A DNA stretch of 39,338 nt, taken from NCBI GenBank assembly GCA_031291795.1, contig JARLIJ010000053.1:1-39338 (forward strand), in the 5' to 3' direction. This DNA is from Acetobacteraceae bacterium. Lineage in GTDB: Bacteria > Pseudomonadota > Alphaproteobacteria > Acetobacterales > Acetobacteraceae. The stretch's first letter is position 1. Each line of letters opens with the position of its first letter. This document shows, piece by piece, positions 16,581 through 37,022 of the stretch. The translations under genes and the position numbers were made by a program. The notes beneath the pieces were generated by a model. That model was given only the letters and a program-made list of their open reading frames with translations, did not search any database and had not been told where the DNA came from.

Positions 16581-16604
16581 CATCTCGTCCGGAGTCACGA
16601 GATG
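16581..16604 (+). promoter_or_regulatory. Hairpin enclosing the MFS transporter's RBS and start codon
   Basis: CATCTCGT (16581-16588) and ACGAGATG (16597-16604) form a perfect 8-bp inverted repeat with an 8-nt loop. The loop holds the Shine-Dalgarno-like GGAG, and the right arm contains the ATG at 16602. In RNA this would hide the start site; in DNA it could instead be an operator. An 8-bp dyad can occur by chance, so only its position is suggestive. Confidence 0.35.
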
Positions 16605-23626: not shown

Positions 23627-24418
23627 TTATCGCAACCCGACTGCCCCGGCGTTGCGCCACAGCATGTAGGCGGCAACCGCGAACACCACGCCGGCGAAGA
23701 TGCGGGTCAGCATCGCCTTGCGCTCCGCCAGGTGCGACGCCAGCCGCATGCCCAGAAAGCCGCCGATCAGCCCGCCGGCGATGTATTCCGCTGCGATCCC
23801 CCAGGCCACCAGCCCCGACAGGGCATAGTTCACGGCGGTCGTCAGGCCGAACGTGCCGACCGACAACAGCGAGGACGCGATCGCCGCGATCATCGGCATG
23901 CCGGTCGAGAACAACAGGCCCGGCACGATCAGGAAGCCGCCGCCGATGCCGAAGAAGCCGGAGAGCATGCCGACCGACAGGCCCGACACCGCCACCAGGC
24001 CAAAATTTTCCCGTCCTGGCGGGGCCCCCTGCTGCTCAGCGGCCGTCTGCCGGCCGTTTCGGCGCAGCATCAGGGCGCCCACGACCACCATGAGGATCGC
24101 GAACAGGAACAGCAGGCGCTGCCCGTCGAACACCTTGCCCAGGGAGGAACCAATCGCGGCGCCGACCACGCCGATGGCAGCGAACAGCAGGGCGACCCGC
24201 CAGCGGACGCGGCCGGCACGCGCATAGCCCGCGAAGTTCGCGAAGGCGTTGACCGATACGGCCAGCGCCCCGGTGCCAATCGCCACGTGTGGCGGCAACC
24301 CGACGACATACAGCAGCAAGGGGGTCGCAAGGACCGAGCCGCCGCCGCCGATCAGTCCAAGAACGAAGCCGACGGCGCTGCCCGACAGGACCGCGAGCAG
24401 GGCGGTAAGGACATCCAT
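23627..24418 (-). CDS. TauE/SafE-family sulfur-compound exporter
   Basis: This polytopic membrane protein (263 aa) of the TauE/SafE family has about eight helices. The family repeat GLIGGGGSVLATPLLLYVVG occurs near residues 22-41, and the second-half copy GFFGIGGGFLIVPGLL near 158-173. Members export sulfite, sulfoacetate or related anions. It begins 15 bp after the second YeeE half-gene, so it belongs to the peroxiredoxin/ArsR operon. Sulfite made by the persulfide dioxygenase is a plausible cargo. Confidence 0.9.
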   Translation of the reverse strand: MDVLTALLAVLSGSAVGFVLGLIGGGGSVLATPLLLYVVGLPPHVAIGTGALAVSVNAFANFAGYARAGRVRWRVALLFAAIGVVGAAIGSSLGKVFDGQRLLFLFAILMVVVGALMLRRNGRQTAAEQQGAPPGRENFGLVAVSGLSVGMLSGFFGIGGGFLIVPGLLFSTGMPMIAAIASSLLSVGTFGLTTAVNYALSGLVAWGIAAEYIAGGLIGGFLGMRLASHLAERKAMLTRIFAGVVFAVAAYMLWRNAGAVGLR

Positions 24419-24433
24419 GATCGTGGATCCCGT

Positions 24434-24862
24434 TCAGGCGTGGCGCGCGCGCGGCGCCGCGGGCATGAACCGGAACGCCGCCATCCCGACCAGCATCGCT
24501 GCAACGAACAGCACGCTCTTGCCGTAGCCGAGCGACAACGAGGCGATCGCGGGGCCGGGACAGAAGCCGGCCATCCCCCAGCCGATGCCGAACAGCGCCG
24601 CGCCGCCGATCAGGCGCAGGTCGATGCGCCGACTGGCGGGGATGTCGAATGTGGGAGCCAGCGCCGGGCGGGCAAGCCGTCGGGACACCAGATACCCGCC
24701 CGCCGACACCACCACCGCGCCAGCCAGCACAAACGCCAGGCTCGGATCCCAGGCGCCCGCGAGGTCCAGAAAGCCCAGGACGCGCACAGGATTGAGCATG
24801 CCGGACAAAGCCAGGCCGAAGCCGAAGACCAAGCCGGACAAGAGTGCTGCGATAATTCTCAT
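24434..24862 (-). CDS. YeeE/YedE half-transporter (C-terminal-type)
   Basis: This 142-aa membrane protein matches the second half of YeeE/YedE (COG2391) sulfur-compound transporters. It has ALSGMLNPVRVLGFLDLAG near residues 18-36 and GIGWGMAGFCPGPAIASLSLG near 92-112, with the conserved Cys101. About four helices are visible. Its ATG overlaps the previous gene's stop as ATGA, and the two halves probably form one transporter. In known single-chain YeeE the Cys motifs pass thiosulfate; in PmpA/PmpB-type pairs the halves are separate as here. Confidence 0.9.
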   Translation of the reverse strand: MRIIAALLSGLVFGFGLALSGMLNPVRVLGFLDLAGAWDPSLAFVLAGAVVVSAGGYLVSRRLARPALAPTFDIPASRRIDLRLIGGAALFGIGWGMAGFCPGPAIASLSLGYGKSVLFVAAMLVGMAAFRFMPAAPRARHA

Positions 24863-25281
24863 ACCAAGTGATTCCGAATGAACACGGTGACGATGGCGGT
24901 GAACATGAAGACCGCGACTGCGGCCATGGAGCGCGGCGAGAGGCGGGCGAGACCGCACACCCCGTGACCGCTGGTGCAGCCGGCACCGAGCCTTGTGCCG
25001 AAACCCACAAGCAAGCCGGCAATGACCAGCATCGGGAGCGAGCTCGCGATCTCCAACGCCGGCGGATGGCCGAACAGCAGGAGGAACAGCAGCGGTCCAC
25101 CGATCAGACCGAGCACGAAGGCGGCCCGCCATCCCCAATCCTCGTCCGGCCGGCGCAGCAGGTTGCCGGCGATGCCGCTGATGCCGGCAACCCGCCCGAG
25201 CAGCAGCAGAAGCAGCGTGGCGGACAGGCCGATCAGGGCCCCTCCGGCAAGCGATGGCCAGTACGGCGCGAGACTGTTCAT
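24859..25281 (-). CDS. YeeE/YedE half-transporter (N-terminal-type)
   Basis: This 140-aa membrane protein is the partner half of YeeE/YedE. Four hydrophobic helices are visible, with the pore signature GFGTRLGAGCTSGHGVCGLARLS near residues 93-115 containing Cys102 and Cys109. The ATG overlaps the ArsR stop by 4 bp. Such pairs move thiosulfate or persulfide-like sulfur across the inner membrane and are commonly under an ArsR repressor, as the layout suggests here. Confidence 0.9.
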   Translation of the reverse strand: MNSLAPYWPSLAGGALIGLSATLLLLLLGRVAGISGIAGNLLRRPDEDWGWRAAFVLGLIGGPLLFLLLFGHPPALEIASSLPMLVIAGLLVGFGTRLGAGCTSGHGVCGLARLSPRSMAAVAVFMFTAIVTVFIRNHLV

Positions 25282-25772
25282 GTGTTGTCGCCCACGATGG
25301 CAAACACCGCGGCCTGACGCGGTCGGGCGGCGGAAGCGAGCCGCTGGACTGCGGCGGCATGGTCGGAATCGCGGGGATACGACGATCCTGCTGCCGTCAT
25401 CGGTTTGCTGTCGCGTGTGGCCTGCTCGGGTCCGGGCGCGGCCACACCGACGGCCGTACCGCCGAACCCGTGCAGCAAGGCGGACACCAGGCGGACCTGG
25501 GCCTCGTCGGCCAAACGATAGATGACGGACTTGGATTCCCGCCGTGTTGCCACGAGGCCTGCTTCACGCAACTCACCCAGTTGCTGCGAGAGATTGGGCT
25601 GGCGCAGGCCGAGCCGCGCTTCGATCTGGGCCACCGAACACTCGCCCTGCAGCAGGTGCAGGACGATCCGCAGGCGGGAGGGATTTGCCAGGACACGCAG
25701 CGTCGCCGCGGCCGCGACGGTGTCGATCGGGTCGGCGCCGGCGGGGCGGGGATCGGTCGGGTCGGCGGTCAT
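25278..25772 (-). CDS. ArsR-family repressor, BigR/SqrR-like
   Basis: The winged helix-turn-helix spans about residues 18-100, with LANPSRLRIVLHLLQGECSVAQIEARLGLRQPNLSQQLGELREAGLV. The C-terminal 60 residues are a low-complexity extension. It resembles the sulfane-sulfur sensors BigR/SqrR and lies beside the same target genes. By my alignment from memory, the two sensing cysteines of BigR fall on Leu and Gly here. The only Cys in the DNA-binding domain is Cys45, after GE. It overlaps both the peroxiredoxin and the YeeE gene by 4 bp. Confidence 0.85.
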   Translation of the reverse strand: MTADPTDPRPAGADPIDTVAAAATLRVLANPSRLRIVLHLLQGECSVAQIEARLGLRQPNLSQQLGELREAGLVATRRESKSVIYRLADEAQVRLVSALLHGFGGTAVGVAAPGPEQATRDSKPMTAAGSSYPRDSDHAAAVQRLASAARPRQAAVFAIVGDNT

Positions 25773-26518
25773 CGGGGTGCCGTCCCGGTCGGATCGGCCG
25801 GCAGCTCGATCGTGCGGTAGTACCAGTCTTCGGCGGGTGCGCCTGGGCCGGAGCCGGCCTGCAGCGACGGCGGCAGCAGCACGGCCTGGCCAGGGCGCCA
25901 GCCTTCCGGCGTGGAGACGTCGTGCCGGTCCGTCACCTGCAGTGCGGCGACCAGGCGCAGCAACTCCTCGACATTGCGGCCCACGGTCATCGGGTACCAG
26001 GTGATGGCGCGGATCACCCCCTCGGGATCGATGACGAAGACGGCGCGCACGGTGGCGGCATCCGGTGCCCTGGGATGGATCATCCCGTAGGCGCGGGCGA
26101 TCGCCATCGAGGGATCCTCGATGATCGGGAACGGGATCTCGACGCCGAAATGGTTGCGGATGCTGCACACCCAGGCGAGGTGCGCGAACAGGCTGTCCAC
26201 CGACAACGCCAGCAGCGCGCAATTCAATGCTGCGAACCGGTCGGCGGCCCGCGCCATGCTGATGAACTCGCTGGTGCAGACCGGCGTGAAGTCCGCCGGA
26301 TGGGAGAAGAACAGCAGCCAGCGACCGCGATAGCCGGCCAGGCTGATCTCTCCATGGGTGCTGCGCGCGCGGAACTCGGGCGCCCGGTCATACAGCATCG
26401 GCGGGCATGGTGGCCGGACGTTGCGCTCCTGCCCCATGCGGCAATGCTCCGGCGGGGTGAAACCGGCCTCGGTCGCCTGGCTGGGGGGCGTTGCCGAACC
26501 GTTCGGGTTCTGCGGCAC
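25769..26518 (-). CDS. Peroxiredoxin (1-Cys/Prx6-like)
   Basis: The thioredoxin-fold peroxidase has the active-site segment HPADFTPVCTSEF with peroxidatic Cys81, and IIEDPSMAIARAYGM near 136-150. The C-terminal part, with WRPGQAVLLPP, is Prx6-like. The start is a GTG with AGGAG 8 nt upstream. There is an N-terminal extension of about 40 residues with two extra cysteines (26 and 38). It is the first gene of the operon with the ArsR repressor and YeeE halves, and may reduce peroxides or remove persulfides formed during sulfide oxidation. Confidence 0.92.
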   Translation of the reverse strand: MPQNPNGSATPPSQATEAGFTPPEHCRMGQERNVRPPCPPMLYDRAPEFRARSTHGEISLAGYRGRWLLFFSHPADFTPVCTSEFISMARAADRFAALNCALLALSVDSLFAHLAWVCSIRNHFGVEIPFPIIEDPSMAIARAYGMIHPRAPDAATVRAVFVIDPEGVIRAITWYPMTVGRNVEELLRLVAALQVTDRHDVSTPEGWRPGQAVLLPPSLQAGSGPGAPAEDWYYRTIELPADPTGTAPR

Positions 26519-26593
26519 GTCGGGTTCTCCTGCTGGATGCGCTCGTCACGTCTGCCCTTGACGGCGGCAGCTTCTCATCATTTATACGCTTTG

Positions 26594-26637
26594 GCATAAT
26601 ATGCAAGTATCACTTATCGAATATGACTAAGTATTCG
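26594..26637. promoter_or_regulatory. AT-rich dyads between the divergent sulfur operons (probable ArsR operator)
   Basis: The 173-bp divergent gap contains an AT-rich island unlike its surroundings. It has GCATA-A-TATGC (26594-26604), ACTTA/TAAGT arms (26613-26617 and 26628-26632), and CGAATA/TATTCG arms (26618-26623 and 26632-26637). ArsR-type repressors bind such AT-rich dyads over promoters, so this is the likely shared control point for the peroxiredoxin and dioxygenase operons. Confidence 0.5.
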
Positions 26638-26691
26638 GTGGCGCCAGGCAGTCGCCCGCGCCGGTCCAGCGTCAACCAGCGGAGTGGAGCC

Positions 26692-27555
26692 ATGACACCA
26701 ACCGTTCAGGCCTTTTTCGATCAGGTCACATTCACAGTCAGCTACGTCGTCGCCGACCCGGCGACCCGCCAGGCGGCGGTGATCGACACCGTGCTCGACT
26801 TCGACCCCGCGTCCGGCCGTACCGCCCGCGCCTCGGCCGACCAGGTCATCGCCTTCGTCCGCGAGGCCGGACTGACCGTCGCGTGGCTGCTCGAGACGCA
26901 TGTCCACGCCGACCACCTCTCCGCCGCCCCCTATGTCCGCCAGCAACTCGGCGGGCGGCTCGCGATCGGGGCGCACATCCGCACCGTGCAGGACACCTTC
27001 GGCAAGGCGTTCAACGCCGGGCCGGAATTCGCCCGCGACGGGTCGCAGTTCGACCACCTGTTCGATGACGGCGAGACCTTCAGCCTCGGCACGTTGCCGG
27101 CGCGCGCCCTGCACACGCCGGGCCATACGCCCGCCTGCATAACCTATGTCATCGGCGACACGGCCTTCGTCGGTGACACCCTGTTCATGCCCGATTACGG
27201 CACCGCGCGCTGCGACTTCCCCGGCGGCGACGCGCGGCAGCTCTATCGCTCGATCCAGCGCATCTTCGCGTTGCCGCCGGAGACACGGCTGTTCATGTGC
27301 CACGACTACAAGGCGCCGGGGCGCGACGAATACCGCTGGGAATCGACCGTCGCGGCGGAGCGCGCCGGCAATGCGCATGTGCGTGACGGCAGCACCGAGG
27401 ATGCCTTCGTCGCCATGCGCACCGCGCGTGACGCAACCCTGCCGCTACCGCGGCTGATCCTGCCCAGCGTGCAGGTCAACATGCGGGCGGGTACGCTGCC
27501 GCCAGCCGAAGACAATGGCGTGCACTACCTGAAACTCCCGGTCGACGTGTTCTGA
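26692..27555 (+). CDS. ETHE1/Blh-like persulfide dioxygenase (MBL fold)
   Basis: This metallo-beta-lactamase-fold protein (287 aa) has the iron-site motif THVHADH with His70, His72, Asp74 and His75, then GHTPAC and a later FVGDTLFMPDYGTARCDFPGG with the family Asp. ETHE1-type enzymes oxidise glutathione persulfide to sulfite using O2. The Blh-like C-terminal segment LILPSVQVNMRAGTLPP is present. The ATG is preceded by GGAG. In some bacteria Blh carries a phosphatase-like N-terminal domain; here that domain is on the next gene instead. Confidence 0.93.
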   Translation: MTPTVQAFFDQVTFTVSYVVADPATRQAAVIDTVLDFDPASGRTARASADQVIAFVREAGLTVAWLLETHVHADHLSAAPYVRQQLGGRLAIGAHIRTVQDTFGKAFNAGPEFARDGSQFDHLFDDGETFSLGTLPARALHTPGHTPACITYVIGDTAFVGDTLFMPDYGTARCDFPGGDARQLYRSIQRIFALPPETRLFMCHDYKAPGRDEYRWESTVAAERAGNAHVRDGSTEDAFVAMRTARDATLPLPRLILPSVQVNMRAGTLPPAEDNGVHYLKLPVDVF

Positions 27556-27569
27556 GCGGGCGACGCACC

Positions 27570-29315
27570 ATGGAAACGCTACGCCGCCTCACCCCCGCCT
27601 TGTCGGTCGCACCGCAACTCTCGGTGGCCGATCTTGGCGGCCTGTCCGCCCTGGGCTTCCACGCCGTCATCAACAACCGCCCGGACAACGAAGCCGACGG
27701 CCAGCCGCCGTCAGCCGTGCTGGAGGCGACTGCCCGGCGTCTGGGCCTCGGCTACCGCCACATCCCGGTGGTCTCCGGAACGGTCACCGACGCCGATGTC
27801 GCGGCGTTCGACCAGGCCCTGCGCGGGCTGCGTGGCCCGGTCCTGGCGTTTTGTCGGACCGGCACCCGCTCCTCCACGCTCTGGTCGCTGTCGCAGGCGC
27901 CGCATCTCGACCCCGAGGCGATCCTGCGCACCGCGGCCGAGGCCGGCTACGACCTGTCCGGCCTGCGCAGCCGGCTGGAGGCGCGGTGGACGGAAGTCCA
28001 ACCCGATGGTGCGGTCGGGGCCGACCTCCCGCCCACCTCCAGCTTCGATGTGGTGGTGGTGGGCGGCGGCGCGGCAGGCAGCTCTGCCGCGGCAAGCCTG
28101 TTGCGCCGCCGCACGCTCCGCATTGCCATCATCGAACCGCGCGACGTGCACTATTACCAGCCCGGCTGGACCCTGGTGGGCGGCGGCGTGTTCAGCCGCA
28201 GCCAGACCGCCCGGCCGATGCGCGGCACGCTGCCCCGCGGCGTGACCTGGCTGCACAGCGCCGTTGCCGCGTTCGAGCCCGAGCACAACGCCGTGGTGCT
28301 GGAGGACGGCAGCCGCATCGGCTACCGCGGCCTGGTGGTGGTACCCGGGCTGCAACTGCAGTGGAGCGCGATCCCGGGGCTGGAAGACGCGTTGGGGCGG
28401 GACGGCGTCACCTCCAACTACCGCTTCGACCTTGCCGCGTACACGTGGGAGCTGGTGCAGGGGATGCAGCGTGGCGTCGCGCTGTTCACCCAGCCGCCGA
28501 TGCCGATCAAATGCGCCGGCGCACCGCAGAAGGCGATGTATCTGTCATGCGACGCCTGGCGCCGGCGCGGCGTGCTGGGGGACGTCCAGGTGGCCTTCCA
28601 CTCCGCCGCCCCGGCGCTGTTCGGCGTCGCCGCCTATGTCCCGCCGCTGATGCGCTACGTGGAACGCTACGGCGCGCAACTGGCCCTGCAATCCACGCTG
28701 AAATCGGTCGACGGGCCCGGACGGACCGCCGTCTTCGAGACCCGCCAGCCCGGCGGCGACGTAGTGCAGGAAACCAAAAGCTTCGACATGCTGCATGTCG
28801 TCCCGCCGCAGGTGGCACCGGATTTCGTCCGGACCTCGCCGCTGGCCGATGCCGCCGGCTGGGTGGAGGTCAGCCCGGAGACGCTGCGCCATCCGCGCTA
28901 CGGCAATATCTTCTCCCTGGGCGATGTCTGCAGCGCGCCCAATGCCAAAACCGCGGCAGCGATCCGCAAGCAGGCGCCGGTGGTGGCGGAGAATGTCATC
29001 GCCGTGCTGGAAGGCCGCGAGCCACGCGCGATCTATGACGGCTACGGCTCCTGCCCGCTGACGGTGGAGCGTGGCCGCGTGGTGCTGGCGGAGTTCGGTT
29101 ACGGCGGCAAGCTGCTGCCCACCATCCCGTGGGATTCGACCAGGCCGCGCCGCAGCGCATGGCTCGTGAAGACCCGGCTGCTGCCATATCTCTACTTCGA
29201 CATGATGCTGCGCGGGCGAGAGTGGCTGGCGCGGCCGCAGATGCTGCCGGATGCACCGGCGCCGCATGCGGCCGTGGACGCGATGCCCGCAACCACCACC
29301 GATCGCAGGATCTGA
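27570..29315 (+). CDS. sqr: DUF442-type phosphatase-like domain fused to type II sulfide:quinone oxidoreductase
   Basis: The N-terminal domain (residues 1-140) is a TIGR01244/DUF442 protein-tyrosine-phosphatase-like unit with Cys95 in FCRTGTRS. From 158 on is an FAD flavoprotein, with the Rossmann motif DVVVVGGGAAGS at 160-171. The SQR part has both redox cysteines of the human-type (type II) enzyme: Cys315 in IKCAGAPQK and Cys454 in GDVCSAPNAKTAAA. SQR oxidises sulfide to persulfide and reduces membrane quinone. It starts 14 bp after the dioxygenase, so persulfide is made and consumed by one operon. The fused domain's role is unproven; rhodanese-like transfer is one idea. Confidence 0.93.
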   Translation: METLRRLTPALSVAPQLSVADLGGLSALGFHAVINNRPDNEADGQPPSAVLEATARRLGLGYRHIPVVSGTVTDADVAAFDQALRGLRGPVLAFCRTGTRSSTLWSLSQAPHLDPEAILRTAAEAGYDLSGLRSRLEARWTEVQPDGAVGADLPPTSSFDVVVVGGGAAGSSAAASLLRRRTLRIAIIEPRDVHYYQPGWTLVGGGVFSRSQTARPMRGTLPRGVTWLHSAVAAFEPEHNAVVLEDGSRIGYRGLVVVPGLQLQWSAIPGLEDALGRDGVTSNYRFDLAAYTWELVQGMQRGVALFTQPPMPIKCAGAPQKAMYLSCDAWRRRGVLGDVQVAFHSAAPALFGVAAYVPPLMRYVERYGAQLALQSTLKSVDGPGRTAVFETRQPGGDVVQETKSFDMLHVVPPQVAPDFVRTSPLADAAGWVEVSPETLRHPRYGNIFSLGDVCSAPNAKTAAAIRKQAPVVAENVIAVLEGREPRAIYDGYGSCPLTVERGRVVLAEFGYGGKLLPTIPWDSTRPRRSAWLVKTRLLPYLYFDMMLRGREWLARPQMLPDAPAPHAAVDAMPATTTDRRI

Positions 29316-29326
29316 GATGCCCGCGC

Positions 29327-29494
29327 GCCAGGGTCTGGGACGCTTCCTCCAGCCGCACGATGCTGCTGATCATGACCGTGGTGACGGCGCTGCTGTTGCC
29401 GATCGTGCTGATCTACACCACGTGGGTCTACCGGGTGCTCCGCGGGCCATTGACGGCGGCCGGCATCACCAGCGACCCGCACGCCTCATACTGA
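29327..29494 (+). pseudogene. cydB 3' fragment (cytochrome bd oxidase subunit II)
   Basis: In this frame the sequence reads ARVWDASSSRTMLLIMTV, TALLLPIVLIYTTWVYRVLRG, and a stop. This matches the last helix of CydB (VWDA, then a hydrophobic helix, YTAWVYRVFRGKV-like). It begins 12 bp after the SQR stop with no start or RBS of its own, and the upstream two thirds of cydB and all of cydA are absent. A 44-residue one-helix protein from an internal ATG at 29360 is the alternative reading. Confidence 0.65.
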
Positions 29495-29511
29495 ACGGAG
29501 GAGCCGAGGAT

Positions 29512-29619
29512 ATGTGGCATTTCAGCGGGGTGCTGGCTCTCGGCCAGGCCTGTGCCTTTGCTGCCCCGAATGCGATGTGGTTGGAGTTGTCGCATGGCGA
29601 TGAATTGCCGGACCGGTAG
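29512..29619 (+). CDS. cydX: CydX/YbgT-type small subunit of cytochrome bd oxidase
   Basis: This 35-aa single-helix protein begins MWHFSGVLALGQACAFA and continues with NAMWLE, matching the CydX pattern (MWYF, then LG.LLAC.F, NA.WLE). GGAG and GAGGA Shine-Dalgarno-like boxes precede the ATG. CydX stabilises haem d in CydAB. The neighbouring cydB is only a 3' fragment, so unless cydAB lies elsewhere this is a stranded relic. It is too short for routine gene calling. Confidence 0.75.
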   Translation: MWHFSGVLALGQACAFAAPNAMWLELSHGDELPDR

Positions 29620-29628
29620 CGGTATCGC

Positions 29629-29689
29629 GGAAGTCCGGCTGCGCCACCGGGCTCCCCGGCCAGGAACCCGGCGGCGTAACCGGACTTCC
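29629..29689. terminator. Long stem-loop after cydX
   Basis: GGAAGTCCGG (29629-29638) pairs with CCGGACTTCC (29680-29689). An inner imperfect stem pairs GCCACCGGG with CCCGGCGGC (one mismatch). No T-run follows. It could end transcription from the SQR operon or be a repeat element; a protein-binding or attenuating role is also possible. Confidence 0.4.
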
Positions 29690-29790
29690 TGCGAGCGATC
29701 GTGACAATCGATTGATGCAATCAGGCAGGCCGGTTGGTCGTCGATCGGCTGCCTCGCTAGATACTGGGCAACTTCATGAGGGCAATCAGC

Positions 29791-30585
29791 ATGACGATCC
29801 AGACCGGAAGGCGAACAACATTGCAGGCGTTCGGCGTGGCGTTGGCCGCCCAGGCAATCACCCTCGCCGGCGCTGGCTCCGTGGCCGAGGCCGCCGTCGC
29901 ATCGACTCTGACGCCGCCTGGCGCTGAGCAACTCAACGCGCTGATGGCGCGCCTTGCCAAGGCCCCCCGGCGCCGCGACTTCAAGACCACGCCGATGATC
30001 CTCACCAGTCCCGACCAATGGGATCACGCAGCGCTTTCGGAGGTGCTGGCCTACAGGCCTGTGCCGAAGCAGGTCTGGGACAATACCGACATCGCCGGTC
30101 CCTGGCTCAACCTGATGCGCAATGCGCTGAACGCCCAGATCTGGTCGTTTCGGCATCCGGACTTCCTCGCCGTCTCGGCCACCCACGGTTCGGCGCAGCT
30201 GGCACTGTACGACCAGGCGATGTGGGACAAGTACCAGCTCACCCGCCTGGCCGGCGACAGGTTCAAGACCAACACGCTGATCGAGGAACCCAAGGCAGGG
30301 GCTGCCGACCCGAAAAACGTCGAGGATCCGGCCGGCGCATTTTCCCCGGCGGACAACGCGATCCCGGCGCTGATGCGGCGCGGCGTGGTGTTCATGTCGT
30401 GCCACAACGCGATCTGGGAGCAGGCCGAGGCGCTGCTCAAGGCGGGCGTGAACCCGGACACGCTGTCGCATGAGGCGCTGGCTGCCGAACTGACCAACCA
30501 CCTGCTCCCAGGGGTCGTGCTCATCCCCGGCGCCGTCGGCACGCTGCCCGAGCTGCAGCAGGCCGGCTTCCATTACGCGAAGTGA
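29791..30585 (+). CDS. Tat-exported DsrE/F-like protein
   Basis: The start gives MTIQTGRRTTLQAFGVALAA, a twin-arginine signal (GRRTTLQ), cleaved after about AEA. The ATG at 29791 is preferred because GAGGG lies 9 nt upstream; 29776 is also open. The mature part ends in a DsrE/DsrF-like block: FMSCHNAIWEQ with Cys204, and GVVLIPGAVGTLPELQQAGFHYAK, close to the DsrE C-terminal pattern. DsrE-type cysteines carry sulfane sulfur, and Tat export puts this one in the periplasm. It opens the operon of binding protein, cytochromes and oxidase. Confidence 0.78.
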   Translation: MTIQTGRRTTLQAFGVALAAQAITLAGAGSVAEAAVASTLTPPGAEQLNALMARLAKAPRRRDFKTTPMILTSPDQWDHAALSEVLAYRPVPKQVWDNTDIAGPWLNLMRNALNAQIWSFRHPDFLAVSATHGSAQLALYDQAMWDKYQLTRLAGDRFKTNTLIEEPKAGAADPKNVEDPAGAFSPADNAIPALMRRGVVFMSCHNAIWEQAEALLKAGVNPDTLSHEALAAELTNHLLPGVVLIPGAVGTLPELQQAGFHYAK

Positions 30586-30596
30586 GGAGGTCGGCA

Positions 30597-31595
30597 ATGC
30601 GATCGTTGCTTCGGAGCATCATGCTGGGCGCCGCCTGCGCGCTGCTGGCGGCCCCCACGCTGGCACAAGACACCGGTTGGAACGGCAAGGCACAGGCGCC
30701 GCATTATCAGGAGGACGTCTTCCCGCCCTGGCAGCACGGCGCCAACAACGACGCCATCGACCGGGGTTTCGACTTCACGGTGCCGGAGGTCGACGTGCTG
30801 GCCGACTTCCACGGCGACCTGAGCCATCCCCGGCTGGTGCTTTATGTCGGCGGCAACTACTTCTTCGCGATGGCGCCGCTGGTGCAGGCGTTCGAGGTGG
30901 CCCACCCGCAGTATAAGGGGCGGGTCTACTGGGAGACGATCCCACCCGGCCTGCTGGTCAAGCAGATGCAGGCGGGCGGCACCATCACGGTCGGCAACAT
31001 GACCTGGACCGCCAGGCCCGACGCCTACTTCGCCGGCCTGGCGAAGGTGAAGGACCTCATCGGGCAGAACCTGCTGACCGGCCCTGCCGTGCCATACGTC
31101 ACCAATACGCTCGCCATCATGGTGCCGAAGGGCAACCCGGCCCATATCACCGGCCTGGCCGACCTGGGCCGGCCGGACCTTCGCCTGGCAATGCCGAACC
31201 CCGAATTCGAGGGCATCGTGCGCCAGATCCGGATGGCCCTGACCAAGGCGGGCGGCGAACCGCTGGCCCGCGCCGTCTACGACAGCAAGGTGAAGGACGG
31301 CAGCACCATCCTCACCCATATCCATCATCGGCAGACGCCGTTGTTCCTGATGCAGGGCGTGGTCGATGCAGGCATCACCTGGCAATCCGAGGCAATGTTC
31401 CAGGAACAGGCAGGGCATCCGATCGAGCACGTCGCCATCCCCGATGGCGACAATGCGACGGCGATCTATGCCGGCGCCGAAGTGAAGGGCGCGCCGCATC
31501 CGGTAGCGGCAAAGGCCTGGCTGGATTTCATCCGTTCGCCCGATGCCCTACAGATCTTCGAGCGGTACGGCTTCAAGCCATATGCCGGCGGATAA
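30597..31595 (+). CDS. Orphan periplasmic solute-binding protein
   Basis: This is a type II periplasmic binding protein (332 aa), ModA/Fe-thiamine-like. Its signal peptide MRSLLRSIMLGAACALLAAPTLAQ is cleaved near residue 24. The ligand-site region reads YVGGNYFFAMAPLVQAFE, and later GITWQSEAMFQEQ and AWLDFIRSPDALQIFERYGF. It has no permease or ATPase partner, and it sits 11 bp after the DsrE-like gene and 39 bp before a dihaem cytochrome. It may bind sulfur oxyanions such as thiosulfate for the enzymes alongside it, or an oxidase metal; both are inference. Confidence 0.85.
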   Translation: MRSLLRSIMLGAACALLAAPTLAQDTGWNGKAQAPHYQEDVFPPWQHGANNDAIDRGFDFTVPEVDVLADFHGDLSHPRLVLYVGGNYFFAMAPLVQAFEVAHPQYKGRVYWETIPPGLLVKQMQAGGTITVGNMTWTARPDAYFAGLAKVKDLIGQNLLTGPAVPYVTNTLAIMVPKGNPAHITGLADLGRPDLRLAMPNPEFEGIVRQIRMALTKAGGEPLARAVYDSKVKDGSTILTHIHHRQTPLFLMQGVVDAGITWQSEAMFQEQAGHPIEHVAIPDGDNATAIYAGAEVKGAPHPVAAKAWLDFIRSPDALQIFERYGFKPYAGG

Positions 31596-31634
31596 CAGAA
31601 GCAGGGCGACGATGCGCAACCGGACCGGCACGCC

Positions 31635-32333
31635 ATGAAACCGACGCGCCGGTGGGCCGCCCTCGCCGTGGCCGGTCTGGTCGCCGCCCTGGGATCGCCG
31701 GCCGTGGGGTCGCTGACCCTGGCGAGGGCGGACGACGCCACCGTCCGAACCGGCGAAGCGATCGTGGCGCATGGCGTGTCGCCCGAACGGCCGGGTTGTG
31801 CCGCCTGCCACATGCAGGACGGCGCCGGTCAGCCGGAGGTTGGCATCCCGCGGCTCGCCGGGCTGACCGGACCGTACATCGCGGCGCAACTCGAGGCCTT
31901 TGCGACGGGCGCGCGCCGCAATGCCGCCATGTCGCCCTATGCCGCAATGCTCACGCCGGCCCAGCGGCAGGCTGTGACGGATTACATTGCGCGCCTGCCG
32001 GTGCCGCCGCAGGCCGATCCGCTGCCGGTTCCCGCGCGGCAGCGCAACCACGGACGCACGCTGTTCCTGGACGGCGACTATCGCACCGGGCTGCTGGCCT
32101 GCGCGCAATGCCACGGCCAGACCGGCCTCGGCGTTGGTGCGTTCTCGCCGCGGCTTGCCGGCCAGTCGGCGGCCTATGTCGCCGAACAGTTGCGGGCGTG
32201 GCACGCGAACAGGCCACGCGATGCCCAGGATGCATTCATGCGGTCCGTGGCAGGTCGCCTCACGCCATCCGACATCGAGGACGTGGCGGCGTTCGTCGCT
32301 TCGCTTGGGGAGAAGGAATCCGGCACGCCATGA
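31635..32333 (+). CDS. Dihaem cytochrome c (c4-like)
   Basis: The exported dihaem protein (232 aa) has a signal peptide to about residue 32. It has two haem-attachment sites, CAACH (55-59) and CAQCH (156-160), in two similar lobes, as in cytochrome c4. Met-containing segments that may supply sixth ligands are RRNAAMSPYAAML near 95-105 and DAFMRSVAGRLT in lobe two. Its stop overlaps the TsdA ATG by 4 bp. It probably carries electrons from TsdA to the ba3 oxidase encoded next. Confidence 0.92.
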   Translation: MKPTRRWAALAVAGLVAALGSPAVGSLTLARADDATVRTGEAIVAHGVSPERPGCAACHMQDGAGQPEVGIPRLAGLTGPYIAAQLEAFATGARRNAAMSPYAAMLTPAQRQAVTDYIARLPVPPQADPLPVPARQRNHGRTLFLDGDYRTGLLACAQCHGQTGLGVGAFSPRLAGQSAAYVAEQLRAWHANRPRDAQDAFMRSVAGRLTPSDIEDVAAFVASLGEKESGTP

Positions 32334-33304
32334 AAATCCGCACCTCATATGCCGTGGCGGGCCTGCTGGCCTGCGTGGTGGGAGCCTCCGGCTGGCTGGT
32401 GGGACGCCTGCCCGCATTCGCCCTCGCGGCCGAACCAGCTGGCAGGCCCGTGACGTTCCAGCCTCCGCCGGACAGCGCCATCCCACAAGGCAAGTTCGGC
32501 GACATGGTGCGCCTCGGCGAGCGGATCTTCCGCGAGCCGGCGACCTATGCGCCGCAATTCGTCGGCAACCAGCTGCGCTGCAGCAACTGCCATCTGCAAG
32601 CCGGGCGGCAGGCCGGCGCGGCCCCGATGTGGGCCGCCTACACAGCCTATCCCGCCTATCGCAGCAAGAACGGCCACGTGAACTCGTTCGAGGAACGCCT
32701 GCAAGGCTGCTTCCGCTACAGCATGAACGGCAAGCCGCCGCCGCTCGGCGACACCGTTCTGGTTGCACTTGAAACCTATTCGTACTTCCTCGCCAAAGGC
32801 CTACCGACCGGCGAGGACGCGCCCGGGCGCAGCTTCCCAACACTGCCGAAGCCGCAGCTGCCGGCCGACTACGCACGCGGCGCACAGGTCTACGTGCAAA
32901 GCTGCGCCTCCTGTCATGGGCCGCAGGGGCAAGGGCAATCCTCCGGCGGAAAAGTGGTGTTCCCGCCGCTGTGGGGGCCGCAATCCTTCAACTGGGGCGC
33001 CGGGATGACCTCGATCAAAAGCGCGGCGGAATTCATCCGCGCCAACATGCCGCTGGGCCTGGGCGGCACACTGAGCGTACAGCAGGCCTGGGACGTTGCC
33101 ACCTACATGGACAGCCAGGTGCGCCCGCAGGATCCCCGCTTCACCGGCGATGTCGAGCAGACCCGCAAGAAGTTTCACAACACACCGTTCTCGATGTACG
33201 GGCAGACCGTCAACGGCGCCGTGCTCGGCGATCCGACCGCCACACCGCCGGACGGAACGGTGCCGGTTGCCGCCACCGCCGCGCCCGTGCAGCAGGCGGA
33301 CTGA
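32330..33304 (+). CDS. tsdA: TsdA-like thiosulfate dehydrogenase
   Basis: This dihaem periplasmic enzyme (324 aa) joins two thiosulfates into tetrathionate. Haem sites are CSNCH (84-88) and CASCH (192-196). Cys127, in LQGCFRYSMNGKPP, fits the unusual Cys axial ligand of TsdA haem 1, and the SMNGKP segment is characteristic. A signal anchor covers residues 5-34. The start ATG overlaps the cytochrome c stop (ATGA), a different start from the long open frame that runs through this region. The 3' end is only 2 bp before the IIa gene. Confidence 0.9.
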   Translation: MKIRTSYAVAGLLACVVGASGWLVGRLPAFALAAEPAGRPVTFQPPPDSAIPQGKFGDMVRLGERIFREPATYAPQFVGNQLRCSNCHLQAGRQAGAAPMWAAYTAYPAYRSKNGHVNSFEERLQGCFRYSMNGKPPPLGDTVLVALETYSYFLAKGLPTGEDAPGRSFPTLPKPQLPADYARGAQVYVQSCASCHGPQGQGQSSGGKVVFPPLWGPQSFNWGAGMTSIKSAAEFIRANMPLGLGGTLSVQQAWDVATYMDSQVRPQDPRFTGDVEQTRKKFHNTPFSMYGQTVNGAVLGDPTATPPDGTVPVAATAAPVQQAD

Positions 33305-33306
33305 AC

Positions 33307-33456
33307 ATGGCCGATCCCATCGACGACGCCGGCGATGCGCCCGCCCCCGGACCGTCCGTGCGCCCGGTCGGAACCTGGGTCGTGGCCGGCTTCCTGCTGT
33401 TCGCGACCCTGACCATGTGGACCCTGGTCGCGGTCATCTTCCATGCCCGCAGCTAG
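33307..33456 (+). CDS. Small subunit IIa-like protein of ba3 oxidase
   Basis: This 49-aa single-helix protein has a charged/Pro-rich N-terminus and one helix (about residues 23-45, TWVVAGFLLFATLTMWTLVAVIF), ending HARS. Size and position just ahead of subunit II match the CbaD/IIa subunit of Thermus-type ba3 oxidase. It starts 2 bp after the tsdA stop and ends 9 bp before cbaB. It was found by context and is easily missed. Confidence 0.75.
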   Translation: MADPIDDAGDAPAPGPSVRPVGTWVVAGFLLFATLTMWTLVAVIFHARS

Positions 33457-33465
33457 GACCGCACA

Positions 33466-33996
33466 ATGAGCGACAGCGCCGCACCGCCCGGTTTCGAGGA
33501 AGCCTTCCACCAGGCCGCCGAACGCCATGAACGGGTCTGGGTGTTCATCGCAATCGTGCTGCTCAGCCTGTTGATGGCCGGCACCCTGTTCTTCGTGGTG
33601 CTCGACTACGGCGTAGTGGTGCAGACCGACGGCTACCGCGCCGACCCCGCGTCCGTTGCGACAACGCCGCCGTTTGCCGATGCGGCACTGGTCCGCACCG
33701 GGCCGAACGCCTACGCGGTGCACATGCTGGCGCATCTGTGGACGTGGACGCCCAGCCCGCTGCATGTGCCGCAGGGCGCCGCGATCACCTTCTACGTCAC
33801 CAGTTCGGACGTGCTGCACGGGTTCGAAGTGCAAGGCACCACCATCAATGTCACCGCGGTGCCGGGCATCGTCGGATCGGTCACCTACACGTTCGCACAT
33901 CCCGGCACGTATTATATCATCTGCAACGAATTCTGCGGCATCGAGCACCAGGCCATGATCGGGCGCATCATCGTCGATCCGGCGAGGCCGGCATGA
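33466..33996 (+). CDS. cbaB: ba3-type cytochrome c oxidase subunit II
   Basis: This single-helix membrane subunit (176 aa) has an anchor at residues 25-48 and a cupredoxin domain with the CuA site: His118 (VLHGF), Cys153, Glu155, Cys157, His161 and Met164, in CNEFCGIEHQAM. The single helix (not two) and short length indicate the B-family. It accepts electrons from a cytochrome c, probably the c4-like protein encoded upstream. Its stop overlaps cbaA's ATG by 4 bp. Confidence 0.95.
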   Translation: MSDSAAPPGFEEAFHQAAERHERVWVFIAIVLLSLLMAGTLFFVVLDYGVVVQTDGYRADPASVATTPPFADAALVRTGPNAYAVHMLAHLWTWTPSPLHVPQGAAITFYVTSSDVLHGFEVQGTTINVTAVPGIVGSVTYTFAHPGTYYIICNEFCGIEHQAMIGRIIVDPARPA

Positions 33997-35732
33997 GCGC
34001 GGTCGTCGGGCGCGGCATCGCGTTGCCCGCGGTGCATGCAGACGCCGCCGAACGGCGGACCATGCTGGCGTTCCTGGTGTGGGGCTTCTCCGCGCTGCTG
34101 ATCGGCGCCGCGATCGGTCCGCTGCAGGCGCTCAACTACGGCGGCATCGATGCCTATCCGTATCTGCATCCGGTGCTGCAGACCTATTACCAGGGGCTGA
34201 CCGTCCACGGTGTCCTGAACGGCTACATCTTCACGTTCTTCATCACCTGCGGCCTGCTGGTCTACCTGCCGGCACGCGAACTTGGGCTGTCACCGAACAT
34301 GGCCCTGTGGCGGCTGTGCCTCGGCACGATGGCCGTCGGCACGCTGATGCTGCTCTATGCCATGTTCGACAATTCATCGAGCGTGCTGTGGACCTTCTAT
34401 CCGCCGCTGAAGGGCAGCGCGTTCTTCTATCTCGGCCTGACGCTGGTGGTGGTCGGCAGCCTGCTGCCGCTGCCGATCGTGCTCGACCTGCGGGCACGGT
34501 GGAAGGCGCTGCGGCCGGGTGCGCTGACGCCGCTGGTGACCTACATGAGCGCGGCCACGATGCTGATGTGGCTGCTGGCCGCGATCGGCGCCGGTATCGA
34601 GCTTGTCGTGCAGCTCGACCCATGGGCGTTGGGGCTGACCGACACGGTGGACCCGATGATCGGCCGCACGCTGTTCTGGTGGACCGGCCATCCCATTGTC
34701 TATTTCTGGCTGATGCCGGCTTATGTTTCGTGGTACGCCCTGCTGCCGAAGCAGGCAGGCGGCAAGCTGGTGTCGGACCCGATGGCCCGGCTGACCTTCG
34801 CGCTGCTGCTGGTGTTCTCCCTGCCGGTCGGCAGCCACCACCAGTACGACGATCCGGGGATCTCGCCGATCTGGAAGGGCATCCTGGCTGCACTTACCCT
34901 GTCGGTCGCGCTGCCCAGCCTGATCACCGCGTTCACCTTGGGGCTCAGCCTGGAATATGCCGGCAGGCTGCGCGGCGGCCGCGGCTGGATCGGCTGGTTC
35001 ACCGCACTGCCCTGGCGCAATGCCAGCGTCGCAGCCCAGGTGCTGGCAATGCTGACCTTCATCTTCGGCGGCGCCGGCGGCATCGTGAATGGCAGTTGGC
35101 AGCTCGATAATCTCGTCCACAACACGACCTGGATCCCCGGCCATTTCCACATCACCGTCGGCACCGCCACCGCGATGACCTTCATGGGCGTGGCATTCTG
35201 GATGCTGCCCCACCTGACCGGACGCGCACCGTTCAGCCCCCGCCTGGCGCTCGCCTCGGTGTGGCTCTGGTTCGTCGGCATGTCGGTGTTCGCGCTGGGG
35301 ATGCATTGGAGCGGCCTGCATGGCGTGCCGCGGCGCGCCTGGGTCTCCTACCTGCCGCACAGCGTCTATGAGCGCGTCTATGGCGCGGCCCATCTGCCGC
35401 TGCTGCTGGTGGCAGCAGGCGGCGTCATCCTGTGGCTTGCAACGATCGCCTTCTACATCGTGTTTGCCGGCAGCCTGTTCGGCCGCCGCCTGGCGACGCC
35501 GGTCGCGATCCCGTTCGCCCAGGCGTTCGGCGGCAAGGAGAGTTATGCGATCGACGACACGGAACCCGCCGGTGTCGTCGCAGATCCGCATCTGTCGCCG
35601 CTGGCAAAACTGCTCGACCATCTCGGGGTGCTGACGCTGTTCACGGCATGCGTGACGCTCGCGGCCTATATCCCGATCTTCTGGCCGTTCATCACCCACA
35701 TGACGGCGGCGCAGGGCTGGAAGGTCTGGTGA
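33993..35732 (+). CDS. cbaA: ba3-type cytochrome c oxidase subunit I
   Basis: This is a haem-copper oxidase of the B-family (579 aa, about 13 helices). Metal ligands are all present: low-spin haem His72 and His386, high-spin haem His384, CuB His233, His282 and His283, and cross-linked Tyr237 in GHPIVYF. These numbers coincide with those known for Thermus thermophilus ba3, which supports the class strongly. The ATG is at 33993, overlapping the subunit II stop. It reduces O2 to water with high affinity and pumps protons. SCO and CtaG follow. Confidence 0.96.
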   Translation: MSAVVGRGIALPAVHADAAERRTMLAFLVWGFSALLIGAAIGPLQALNYGGIDAYPYLHPVLQTYYQGLTVHGVLNGYIFTFFITCGLLVYLPARELGLSPNMALWRLCLGTMAVGTLMLLYAMFDNSSSVLWTFYPPLKGSAFFYLGLTLVVVGSLLPLPIVLDLRARWKALRPGALTPLVTYMSAATMLMWLLAAIGAGIELVVQLDPWALGLTDTVDPMIGRTLFWWTGHPIVYFWLMPAYVSWYALLPKQAGGKLVSDPMARLTFALLLVFSLPVGSHHQYDDPGISPIWKGILAALTLSVALPSLITAFTLGLSLEYAGRLRGGRGWIGWFTALPWRNASVAAQVLAMLTFIFGGAGGIVNGSWQLDNLVHNTTWIPGHFHITVGTATAMTFMGVAFWMLPHLTGRAPFSPRLALASVWLWFVGMSVFALGMHWSGLHGVPRRAWVSYLPHSVYERVYGAAHLPLLLVAAGGVILWLATIAFYIVFAGSLFGRRLATPVAIPFAQAFGGKESYAIDDTEPAGVVADPHLSPLAKLLDHLGVLTLFTACVTLAAYIPIFWPFITHMTAAQGWKVW

Positions 35733-35752
35733 CCGGGGAGGCATGCCGCACC

Positions 35753-36346
35753 ATGCGACGATCCGCTGCGCGCGCCCTGTTCACGCTAATCGTCCTGGCG
35801 CTGGGGCTGTGGGGCTACGCACGGTCCGGGGACCGCTTCGCCTATGCCGGCACCCGGGTTGCAGCCGGCATCGCGCCGCCGCTGGTGCTGCCGGACGATC
35901 GCGGCGGCACGTTCGACCTCGCCGCCCATCGCGGCCGGATCGTGCTGGTCTATTTCGGCTACACGCGGTGCCCCGATGTTTGCCCGGCAACGCTCGACCT
36001 GCTGGGTGCCGTCGCGCAGCAACTCGGTGCCGACCGAAGCCGCGTCGAGGCGGTCTTCGTGACACTCGATCCGCGGCGCGACACGCCGCCCGCCTTGCAC
36101 GACTTCCTGTCGAACTTCGATCCGGTGCCGGTCGGGCTGACCGGGTCGCCGGCGGCCATCGCCGCGGCGGCGCAGCGCTGGGGCGTGACGTGGCGCCCCG
36201 CCGAGGGCGGCGCGTATATCGACCACACCTCGCTCGTGACCGCGATCGGTCCCGATGGCAGGCAGCGTCTGCGCTACGGCTTCTCGCAACTCGGCGATGC
36301 GGCCGCCGTTGCACGCGACCTGAAGCATATCCTCGATGAGGACTGA
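35753..36346 (+). CDS. SCO1/SenC copper chaperone
   Basis: The membrane-anchored thioredoxin-fold protein (197 aa) has a helix at residues 7-22. It has the copper-site CPDVC with Cys73 and Cys77, and the third ligand His158 in YIDHTS. SCO proteins insert copper into the CuA centre of subunit II, encoded two genes upstream. The ATG at 35753 follows GGGGAGG; a GTG at 35729 overlapping the cbaA stop is an alternative. It overlaps ctaG by 11 bp. Confidence 0.94.
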   Translation: MRRSAARALFTLIVLALGLWGYARSGDRFAYAGTRVAAGIAPPLVLPDDRGGTFDLAAHRGRIVLVYFGYTRCPDVCPATLDLLGAVAQQLGADRSRVEAVFVTLDPRRDTPPALHDFLSNFDPVPVGLTGSPAAIAAAAQRWGVTWRPAEGGAYIDHTSLVTAIGPDGRQRLRYGFSQLGDAAAVARDLKHILDED

Positions 36347-37022
36347 CGCAGCGGCCGTCCGGCACCGGACCTGGTTCGGCTGGAGGCAGCTGCCGGCCAC
36401 TGTCGCGGCTGCGCTGGTCGTGAGCCTCGCCGTCCTGGGGCTGCGCGATCCGCTTGCCTCCATGGCGAGCTACACGGCCGCGCTGATGGCGCTGAACCAA
36501 CTCGCACCACCGCTGCTCCTGCTGGCGCTGCCGCCCGGGATCTGCGGGGGCAGTGAAAACCGGTTATGGGGCGTCCTGCTTGATCAGTGGGCCGGGATGA
36601 CGCTGTTCGTCGGCCTCAGCATCGCCATCGGGCTACCTGGTGTCTTCGATCCCAGTCTCGCAAATGCGCTGTATGCCGCGCCGCTCGGCGTGCTGGAGCT
36701 GGTGTCCGGCCTGCTGTTCTGGGCGCAGTTCATGCCGGCGACGCGGTGTATTCGCCGCGGATGGCTGGCAGGCGCGCTGGCCTGGGTCGGAGCGATGCCG
36801 ATGACTGTGGTCGCAGTGATCTGGATGCTGTCGCCGGTGGTCCTCTACACGCCCTACCTCGACGTGATCTGCCGCTGGAATATCCCGCCGCTCGCCGATC
36901 AGAAATGGGCGGGGCTGGTGATGTTCGTGGCGGGCCTGCCCATCCAGTTGTTCGGAGCGTGGCTGATCCTTTGTTCAAAGCCTGACCTGGGAGGACGCTC
37001 GAAGCGCGCGCAAGCTTTCTGA
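36336..37022 (+). CDS. ctaG: CtaG-family oxidase assembly protein (caa3-type CtaG)
   Basis: This polytopic protein (228 aa, about six helices) matches the caa3-type CtaG family (PF09678), not the Cox11-type CtaG. Features are the cytoplasmic start, an early helix at about 20-35, LNQLAPPLLLLALPPGI near 53-69, and GALAWVGAMPMTVVAVIWMLSP near 146-167. Such proteins support CuB assembly in oxidases. It overlaps the SCO gene and ends the sulfur/oxidase operon. No strong terminator is seen after it. Confidence 0.86.
   Translation: MRTDAAAVRHRTWFGWRQLPATVAAALVVSLAVLGLRDPLASMASYTAALMALNQLAPPLLLLALPPGICGGSENRLWGVLLDQWAGMTLFVGLSIAIGLPGVFDPSLANALYAAPLGVLELVSGLLFWAQFMPATRCIRRGWLAGALAWVGAMPMTVVAVIWMLSPVVLYTPYLDVICRWNIPPLADQKWAGLVMFVAGLPIQLFGAWLILCSKPDLGGRSKRAQAF

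Follow-up and report, generated by a model that had tools for sequence, protein, structure and literature searches.

A putative sulfide- and thiosulfate-oxidation island with a ba3 oxidase in an Acetobacteraceae genome, and the alternation of TsdA and DoxDA beside the thiosulfate dehydrogenase TSD

Introduction

We analysed a stretch of 39,338 nucleotides from an Acetobacteraceae bacterium (contig JARLIJ010000053.1 of assembly GCA_031291795.1; hereafter the window), in which two divergent gene runs form an island for the putative oxidation of sulfide and thiosulfate with oxygen. One of its genes encodes TSD, a thiosulfate dehydrogenase of the Acidithiobacillus type. In Acidithiobacillus ferrooxidans, TSD belongs to the cluster AFE_0041-0046 (transporter, TSD, the sulfate/thiosulfate-type binding protein SBP, DoxDA and others), which is higher on sulfur than on iron (PMC2754497; PMC6335251, Figure 6 legend) and is of the DoxDA sort according to a table in PMC2754497. 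TSD has been reported as a thiosulfate dehydrogenase in its own right (PMC6335251), and on electron acceptors the relevant part of that review reports solely what TSD does not reduce. In the legend to Figure 1 of a 2024 review (PMC10859504) a question mark denotes an electron acceptor, in a scheme that includes TSD; we infer that the mark belongs to TSD, and the natural electron acceptor of this enzyme seems to be still open in the literature.

A second kind of thiosulfate dehydrogenase, TsdA, makes tetrathionate, and the relevant passages of PMC12423496 and PMC7608252 describe its organisms without mention of TSD; in some cases the enzyme is bifunctional (PMC7608252). Two sulfide systems are also close to the island. 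The bigR operon of Xylella and Agrobacterium shares with it an ArsR repressor, Blh-type domains and TauE (PMC5823870), and the sulfide regulons of Acinetobacter share sulfide:quinone oxidoreductase (SQR), dioxygenases, YeeE and TauE, a putative thiosulfate/sulfite effluxer (PMC7315123). Searches of openly licensed papers turned up no description of a TSD-TsdBA-ba3 assembly. On balance, we favour the interpretation that the island joins two modules, one that would clear sulfide in the cytoplasm and one that would carry electrons from thiosulfate to oxygen along a periplasmic chain in which TsdBA is the outlet of TSD.

Results

TSD is accompanied by either TsdA or DoxDA

The thiosulfate genes of the window are the following.

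29776..30585, plus strand: TSD, Acidithiobacillus-type thiosulfate dehydrogenase, Tat-type signal, single invariant Cys209 (NF052225, 412.6 bits, cut-off 300)
30597..31595, plus strand: SBP, periplasmic sulfate/thiosulfate-type binding protein (PF13531, 185.6 bits; weak CysP and sulfate-binding relatives)
31635..32333, plus strand: TsdB-like dihaem cytochrome c4, two CxxCH motifs (5lo9 residues 20-188, 97.1 bits)
32330..33304, plus strand: TsdA, dihaem thiosulfate dehydrogenase / tetrathionate reductase (5lo9, 291.4 bits; 4wqc, 165.4 bits)

As in A. ferrooxidans, TSD is directly followed by SBP. The partner differs: DoxDA, which leads to quinone, is found there, whereas the window has TsdB-TsdA and a ba3 oxidase, so it falls outside the tsd-sbp-doxDA sort. 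To compare loci we took the best 80 of 250 listed TSD loci and 20 stretches from 18 Acetobacteraceae genomes, a sample biased toward the relatives of the window. These 100 loci (L027-L126) gave 91 TSD places once identical or short ones were removed; among those dropped was L057 (Methylobacterium sp. J-076, complete order), whose TSD segment is identical to that of L055. Partners were counted in the 62 of the 91 loci with flanks of at least 5 kb behind and at least 3 kb before TSD.

Within 5 kb of TSD, TsdA was present at 36 of the 62 loci, the DoxDA fusion at 16, both at none and neither at 10. The hypergeometric probability of such exclusivity is 1.9e-8 when kinship is ignored. On a quick TSD tree (69 rows, 51 with a TsdA or DoxDA state) the partner switched 9 times, and on a larger one (93 rows, 67 with a state) 11 times; both trees were made in quick mode without bootstrap and have open inner branches (17/66 and 32/90), so these counts are approximate. 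On the larger tree, nine independent pairs (starred branches) comprised 0 that went the same way, 5.8 that went the other way and 3.1 with no difference, with a median p of 0.03 (range 0.016-0.125) in a test of modest power. The nearest TSD relative of the window itself, from Rhodopila (80-81%), stands with DoxDA while the window has TsdBA. That TSD has TsdA or DoxDA beside it, never both, is new here. The simplest reading is that a single electron-accepting thiosulfate oxidiser partners the TSD-SBP pair, a role that either DoxDA or TsdBA can fill.

SBP lies within 1.5 kb of TSD at 56 of the 62 long-flank loci, and transporter genes are absent beside it in the window. The first-pass annotation, made from the sequence alone, had listed a "dihaem c" after the binding protein, which is correct as to the haems and can be stated more exactly as TsdB-like: among solved structures this protein is best matched by the N-terminal part of 5lo9 (which we take to be a TsdBA fusion), and TsdA by its C-terminal part. 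Its specificity is modest, since ordinary c4 proteins match it as well (71-73 bits, against 97.1 for 5lo9). In the window, each half of 5lo9 thus corresponds to a gene of its own, and these two neighbours adjoin the genes of TSD, SBP and the oxidase; the TsdA of Allochromatium (4wq7) is the other described counterpart. TsdA aligns to 4wqc and 5lo9. Among its relatives, the two CxxCH motifs and Cys127, of the type axial to haem 1, are invariant in 46 of 46 sequences. Across the 36 TsdA loci, 25 have TsdB and a close TsdA (about 60-78%), and the other 11 have looser TsdA relatives (33-50% identity) with TsdB not found. The island has two kinds of thiosulfate dehydrogenase, TSD and TsdA, where the first-pass annotation had counted one.

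This coexistence could also mean that TSD and TsdA are parallel, independent enzymes, suited for example to different pH or substrate levels, with SBP scavenging thiosulfate and no partnership between them. TSD (PMC6335251) and TsdA (PMC12423496, PMC7608252) have each been reported as a thiosulfate dehydrogenase by itself, at least in the parts of those papers concerned with the enzymes, and the ten loci with neither partner nearby agree with such independence. Independence would not demand, however, that TsdA and DoxDA swap beside TSD and occur together at none of the 62 loci, and TSD has no recognised cofactor domain of its own. We regard this explanation as unlikely.

A further observation concerns the interval between SBP and TsdB, which in three loci (L060, L065, L078) contains a gene of the 5'-nucleotidase family; another member lies at L210:15699-17069. 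The protein of these TSD operons is possibly SoxB-like and may act on tetrathionate. SoxB was not found in the source genome of the window, which proves little, this assembly (4.87 Mb in 417 contigs) being 69% complete.

TSD has a single invariant cysteine and a weakly predicted DsrE-like fold

TSD of the window scores above the cut-off of the curated equivalog model NF052225, and by family membership it is assigned the oxidation of thiosulfate to tetrathionate. Cys209 is conserved in 69 of 69 aligned homologues, with no other column having cysteine in more than 30% of the rows; this feature was found here and does not come from the literature. A twin arginine occurs within the first 40 columns in 52 of the 69 rows, some of which are without their N-terminus. 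No PDB relative was detected by sequence at E <= 10, and there was no Pfam family match, hence no recognisable cofactor domain.

The predicted model (mean pLDDT 85.1, pTM 0.81) becomes confident at about residue 41. With this model Foldseek returned matches with weak statistics, none at E <= 0.001: 2pd2 was the best (E 1.2e-3, TMt 0.57), followed among others by 8uja (a designed cage, E 9.9e-3) and 3mc3, with 3pnx at rank 27. Since 2pd2, 3mc3 and 3pnx are DsrE-like, the model weakly suggests a likeness to DsrE, at the level of fold only. The earlier description of this gene as a "Tat DsrE-like protein" thus survives in its fold, weakly, and gives way as to family, which is that of NF052225.

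The naming of TSD varies in databases as well. In 24 plasmid records that carry it, the gene is annotated as "transcriptional initiation protein Tat" (11), as a hypothetical protein (7) or not at all (6). Such labels mask thiosulfate oxidation in several genera, among them Gluconobacter, Bradyrhizobium and Paraburkholderia.

A cytochrome-c type ba3 oxidase follows TsdA

Downstream of TsdA the plus run continues with an oxidase operon.

33307..33456, plus strand: 49-aa ORF with one helix, probably a small subunit of the oxidase (position kept in 9 relatives and the window)
33466..33996, plus strand: CbaB, ba3 subunit II with CuA site (Thermus ba3 subunit II, 139.7 bits)
33993..35732, plus strand: CbaA, ba3 subunit I (Thermus ba3, 562 bits)
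35729..36346, plus strand: SCO1/SenC copper chaperone (PF02630, 119.3 bits)
36336..37022, plus strand: CtaG-type oxidase assembly protein (PF09678, 55.6 bits)

The small ORF, which matched no family model, may be IIa-like. Residues H72, H233, Y237, H282, H283, H384 and H386 of CbaA (16/16 sequences) and H118, C153, C157, H161 and M164 of CbaB (18/18) are invariant; they comprise the His-Tyr pair and the ligands of haem, CuB and CuA. Oxidases with a CuA site are cytochrome c oxidases and are not reduced directly by quinol. The full ba3 oxidase proposed by the first-pass annotation is therefore present, is of the cytochrome-c type and retains its metal ligands, which it shares with the Thermus enzyme. 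Unlike in Thermus, the oxidase genes of the window belong to a sulfur operon, whose TsdB-like protein is the likely electron donor.

In 200 genomes of the family, CbaA with at least 66% identity was found in seven, the window's own included. A dihaem cytochrome c precedes the oxidase in 7/7, and TsdA is also there in four (the window, G086, G096 and G164); the remaining three (G042, G174, G037) have the dihaem c beside ba3 without TsdA. At E <= 1e-180, this ba3 subtype was found in none of the 384 other genomes of a class sample and none of the 397 others of a phylum sample, samples that overlap and are too thin for mapping a rare gene, given that Methylobacterium has the subtype.

The order TSD, SBP, TsdB, TsdA, small ORF, CbaB, CbaA, SCO, CtaG recurs at 8 of the 91 TSD loci, namely G086, G096, four Methylobacterium loci (three strains), Methylorubrum thiocyanatum and Lichenibacterium minor. 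The order in G086 is that of the window, G096 (L043) has a 2.6-kb insert after SBP, and the other six, from Methylobacterium, Methylorubrum and Lichenibacterium, have a small LysR-type ORF between SBP and TsdB. Acetobacteraceae, Methylobacteriaceae and Lichenibacterium thus share the order from TSD to CtaG, with proteins that are 46-81% identical to those of the window. Across 10 operons, the window and a plasmid included, TSD identities track the identities of its operon partners (r 0.92-0.99; 45 pairs, which are not independent of one another). A ba3 set was not seen within 8 kb at 35 of the 43 TSD-TsdA loci, some of which have shorter flanks; a distant CbaA match in L084 (25%) was left out of the ba3 count. 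At the 35 loci TsdBA must therefore depend on other oxidases.

These data bear on whether the oxidase belongs to the thiosulfate genes at all. It might serve hypoxia or general respiration, its position behind them being a frozen hitch-hike, as the 35 loci without a ba3 set suggest, together with G042, G174 and G037, whose close ba3 operon and dihaem c stand in 20-kb stretches with no TsdA or TSD. A hitch-hike does not readily explain an order conserved at such divergence in three groups and in a plasmid copy, nor frames that overlap or almost touch their neighbours, and we consider it distinctly improbable. Still less credible is that TsdA acts as a tetrathionate reductase and the thiosulfate genes serve anaerobic electron disposal: TsdA can be bifunctional in some of the cases covered by PMC7608252, but here the operon leads up to an oxidase that reduces oxygen with electrons drawn from c-type haems. 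We think this highly unlikely.

The modules recur in several arrangements and on plasmids

According to the first-pass annotation, this assembly in one place had no known precedent, and scattered neighbours in relatives would make its order accidental. The thiosulfate-oxidase half keeps its order in relatives, of which only some have the sulfide half attached. SQR/transferase or dioxygenase genes lie within 9 kb of TSD at 10 of the 91 places (L029 and L063 on a partial or weak match), against a chance expectation of about 0.9%, an estimate for two genes in a 4-Mb genome that ignores kinship. In G164 the set is split, TSD-SBP adjoining the sulfide set (L185) and TsdB-TsdA-ba3 lying on another contig (L142).

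The whole assembly has a precedent in pNYY1_4 (NZ_CP090583.1), a mobilizable plasmid of 48.5 kb from Methylobacterium radiotolerans, and in other genomes its modules lie apart. This plasmid has counterparts of all island genes of the window except the cyd relic described below, in a different order and orientation. It carries TauE, YeeE, YeeE, ArsR, dioxygenase, Prx, transferase-SQR, pyrophosphatase and a YoaK-family gene, then CtaG-SCO-CbaA-CbaB-small ORF-TsdA-TsdB-LysR-type ORF-SBP-TSD, plus a molybdopterin oxidoreductase; the pyrophosphatase, YoaK-family gene, LysR-type ORF and oxidoreductase are additions relative to the window. Its TSD is annotated as a hypothetical protein, and its TsdA and TsdB as c-type cytochromes. 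A related CbaA was present in three plasmid records, of which only pNYY1_4 also has TSD. In the 24.8 kb covered of a conjugative Bradyrhizobium plasmid, the sulfide set is accompanied by TSD, SBP and two c-type cytochromes, and the oxidase is absent. A plasmid of Gluconobacter oxydans 621H has TSD-SBP-DoxD. The gene order is neither accidental nor unique, because eight of 91 loci repeat it and pNYY1_4 holds both sets; the assembly is modular and, in part at least, mobile, and it occurs in several arrangements.

The sulfide module

The island extends over 23627-37022, as two divergent runs (23627-26437, minus strand; 26692-37022, plus strand). The first-pass annotation, in which every named gene is present with an open frame, began it at 25278 and so left out TauE and both YeeE halves that it lists; the 49-aa ORF at 33307-33456 and the cyd relic at 29327-29619 went unnamed. 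From the middle outward, the minus run encodes the peroxiredoxin, ArsR, two YeeE halves and TauE, its frames overlap by 4 bases through both YeeE halves, and TauE lies 15 bases farther on. The plus run encodes the dioxygenase, the transferase/SQR fusion, the cydB end and the CydX-like ORF before it reaches TSD, SBP, TsdB, TsdA, the 49-aa ORF, CbaB, CbaA, SCO and CtaG; from TsdB to CtaG, adjacent frames overlap or are at most 9 bases apart.

23627..24418, minus strand: TauE/SafE exporter, predicted for sulfite or thiosulfate (PF01925, 171.6 bits)
24434..24862, minus strand: YeeE/YedE-like half, DUF6691 (PF20398, 156.4 bits)
24859..25281, minus strand: YeeE/YedE half (PF04143, 42.4 bits, cut-off 27)
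25278..25772, minus strand: ArsR-family repressor, BigR-related, without the BigR dithiol (PF01022; NF040642, 85.1 bits, cut-off 155; 3pqj alignment)
25769..26437, minus strand: Prx6-type peroxiredoxin (AhpC-TSA and 1-cysPrx_C; NF009668, 242.5 bits, cut-off 211); possible start as far up as 26518
26572..26600, plus strand: sigma-70-like promoter match in the AT-rich stretch of the divergent gap, weak, at chance level
26692..27555, plus strand: ETHE1-like persulfide dioxygenase, matching the C-terminal part of Blh (NF040641 positions 141-423, 402.3 bits)
27570..29315, plus strand: sulfur transferase (BLH/DUF442) fused to SQR (PF04273, TIGR01244)
29327..29494, plus strand: relic, 3' end of cydB (PF02322 positions 265-301 of 302, 37.4 bits, above cut-off)
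29512..29619, plus strand: CydX-like 35-aa ORF (from its sequence)

The dioxygenase matches human ETHE1 (4chl, 90 bits) and unnamed metallo-beta-lactamase-fold entries (up to 442 bits), and its metal-site (iron ligand) residues are retained. In the fusion protein, residues 158-550 match human mitochondrial SQOR (6mp5, 331.2 bits), all 21 aligned sequences keep C315 and C495, and the score against NF049943 is 166.5 bits, below its cut-off of 525; judged by these matches, SQR of the window is of the mitochondrial (SQOR) kind. SQOR combines H2S and sulfite into thiosulfate (PMC5823870, introduction). Together with a dioxygenase that would make sulfite, the cytoplasmic product is plausibly thiosulfate. 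Several SQR relatives were listed with one TGA inside the match, and seven of them (L185, L190, L193, L196-L199) were read through; in these the TGA is the normal stop of the SQR gene, beyond which the match continues, and selenocysteine was rejected.

Compared with the bigR operon, the transferase of the window is fused to SQR and not to the dioxygenase. The domains of the single-chain Blh are split over two proteins (91.3 + 402.3 bits, cut-off 625), which places the window outside that family. The repressor likewise falls below the BigR cut-off. It has one cysteine only and none C-terminally, with a leucine opposite the cysteine of the 3pqj row at the BigR position, whereas the BigR dithiol is formed by Cys42 and Cys108 according to the regulator section of PMC5823870; another sensing mechanism than the BigR cysteine pair is possible. 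Its C-terminal tail reads ..AAVFAIVGDNT, and similar tails occur in L029, L069, L187 and L191.

Between SQR and TSD lie 460 bases that contain the cyd relic, and given this interval TSD may start a separate transcript. Promoter and terminator scans returned 2 matches against 1.3 expected for the region and 6 against 4.4, both near chance, so they are no evidence on a shared SQR-TSD transcript; no operator palindromes were found in the divergent gap or ahead of TSD. The 35-aa ORF is only tentatively likened to CydX. An intact CydB elsewhere in the genome has 41% identity to the relic over 41 residues. A cydAB pair adjoins the sulfide set in 3 of 20 SQR stretches (L188, from the genus of the window, L193 and L194), and L203 has weaker, broken matches only. 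The relic behind SQR suggests a lost bd oxidase operon, with an assembly fault being less likely; its position directly 3' of SQR fits a bd oxidase, which is refractory to sulfide according to the relevant part of PMC7315123.

Discussion

From the gene content, intact frames, catalytic residues, recurring order, TsdA/DoxDA alternation and plasmid presence observed, we infer substrates, reactions, flux, contact between partners and co-expression as follows. The SQOR-type SQR, fused to a transferase, would oxidise sulfide and pass the electrons to quinone. The dioxygenase would convert persulfide into sulfite, and sulfite and sulfane sulfur would give thiosulfate, which would leave the cytoplasm through TauE. 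In the periplasm SBP and TSD would capture thiosulfate and it would be oxidised to tetrathionate. TSD, which has a predicted DsrE-like fold, one conserved cysteine and no cofactor domain that can be recognised, presumably carries thiosulfate on Cys209 and would require a dedicated electron outlet, TsdBA here and DoxDA (to quinone) in other bacteria. Electrons would then run from the TsdA haems to TsdB, to the CuA of ba3 and to oxygen.

The gene families for both branches named by the first-pass annotation, sulfide to sulfite and thiosulfate to tetrathionate, are present. The electron routes that it drew stand in part: the thiosulfate branch may reach ba3 via c-type haems as proposed, but SQR delivers its electrons to quinone, from which ba3 is reachable only via a bc1 complex. 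Since the SQR electrons enter quinone, the oxidase would be wired to the thiosulfate branch, by way of TsdB and TsdA. The two branches are probably in series and not parallel, because SQR and the dioxygenase would make thiosulfate, the substrate of the periplasmic genes. Sulfide cleared first would also leave the haem-copper oxidase protected, which makes sense since H2S inhibits cytochrome c oxidase (PMC5823870).

Several points weigh against two joined modules with TsdBA as the outlet of TSD. Besides the ten TSD loci with neither partner, the 35 TSD-TsdA loci with no ba3 set seen and the three genomes with dihaem c and ba3 and no TsdA, TSD could be redundant, as TsdA yields tetrathionate in organisms for which the passages cited from PMC12423496 and PMC7608252 do not mention TSD. 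No further tetrathionate-processing enzyme was recognised in the window, and in Methylobacterium oryzae no tetrathionate is formed on the way from thiosulfate to sulfate, according to the relevant part of PMC4161386. Taking these into account, we still lean toward the two-module interpretation. A more specific form of it, which we put forward tentatively, is that TSD does not act as an enzyme by itself and is a cofactor-free DsrE-like thiosulfate carrier or half-enzyme which, with SBP, feeds an exchangeable partner, DoxDA (to quinone) or TsdBA (to cytochrome c, and here directly to the ba3 oxidase bundled with it); the clearance of sulfide, the making and oxidation of thiosulfate and the oxidase would then be one mobile respiratory island.

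Two further observations lie outside the island. A TcuC-type tricarballylate/proton symporter gene is present at 16602-17930 of the window (736.1 bits, cut-off 445), and a partial RuBisCO-large-family match, possibly a RuBisCO-like protein, at G000:C389:32692-33105 (73.2 bits, 140 of 299 positions).

The gene order names two candidate electron acceptors of TSD, TsdBA and DoxDA, together with the organisms that carry each. It also provides candidate genes for thiosulfate oxidation in Methylobacterium: in M. oryzae this oxidation has been reported with soxZ the only sox gene found, and the exclusion of a tetrathionate intermediate in the same source (PMC4161386, relevant part) would need explaining. 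Finally, an entire chain from sulfur compounds to oxygen lies on a mobilizable plasmid, and could move such respiration between bacteria in one step.

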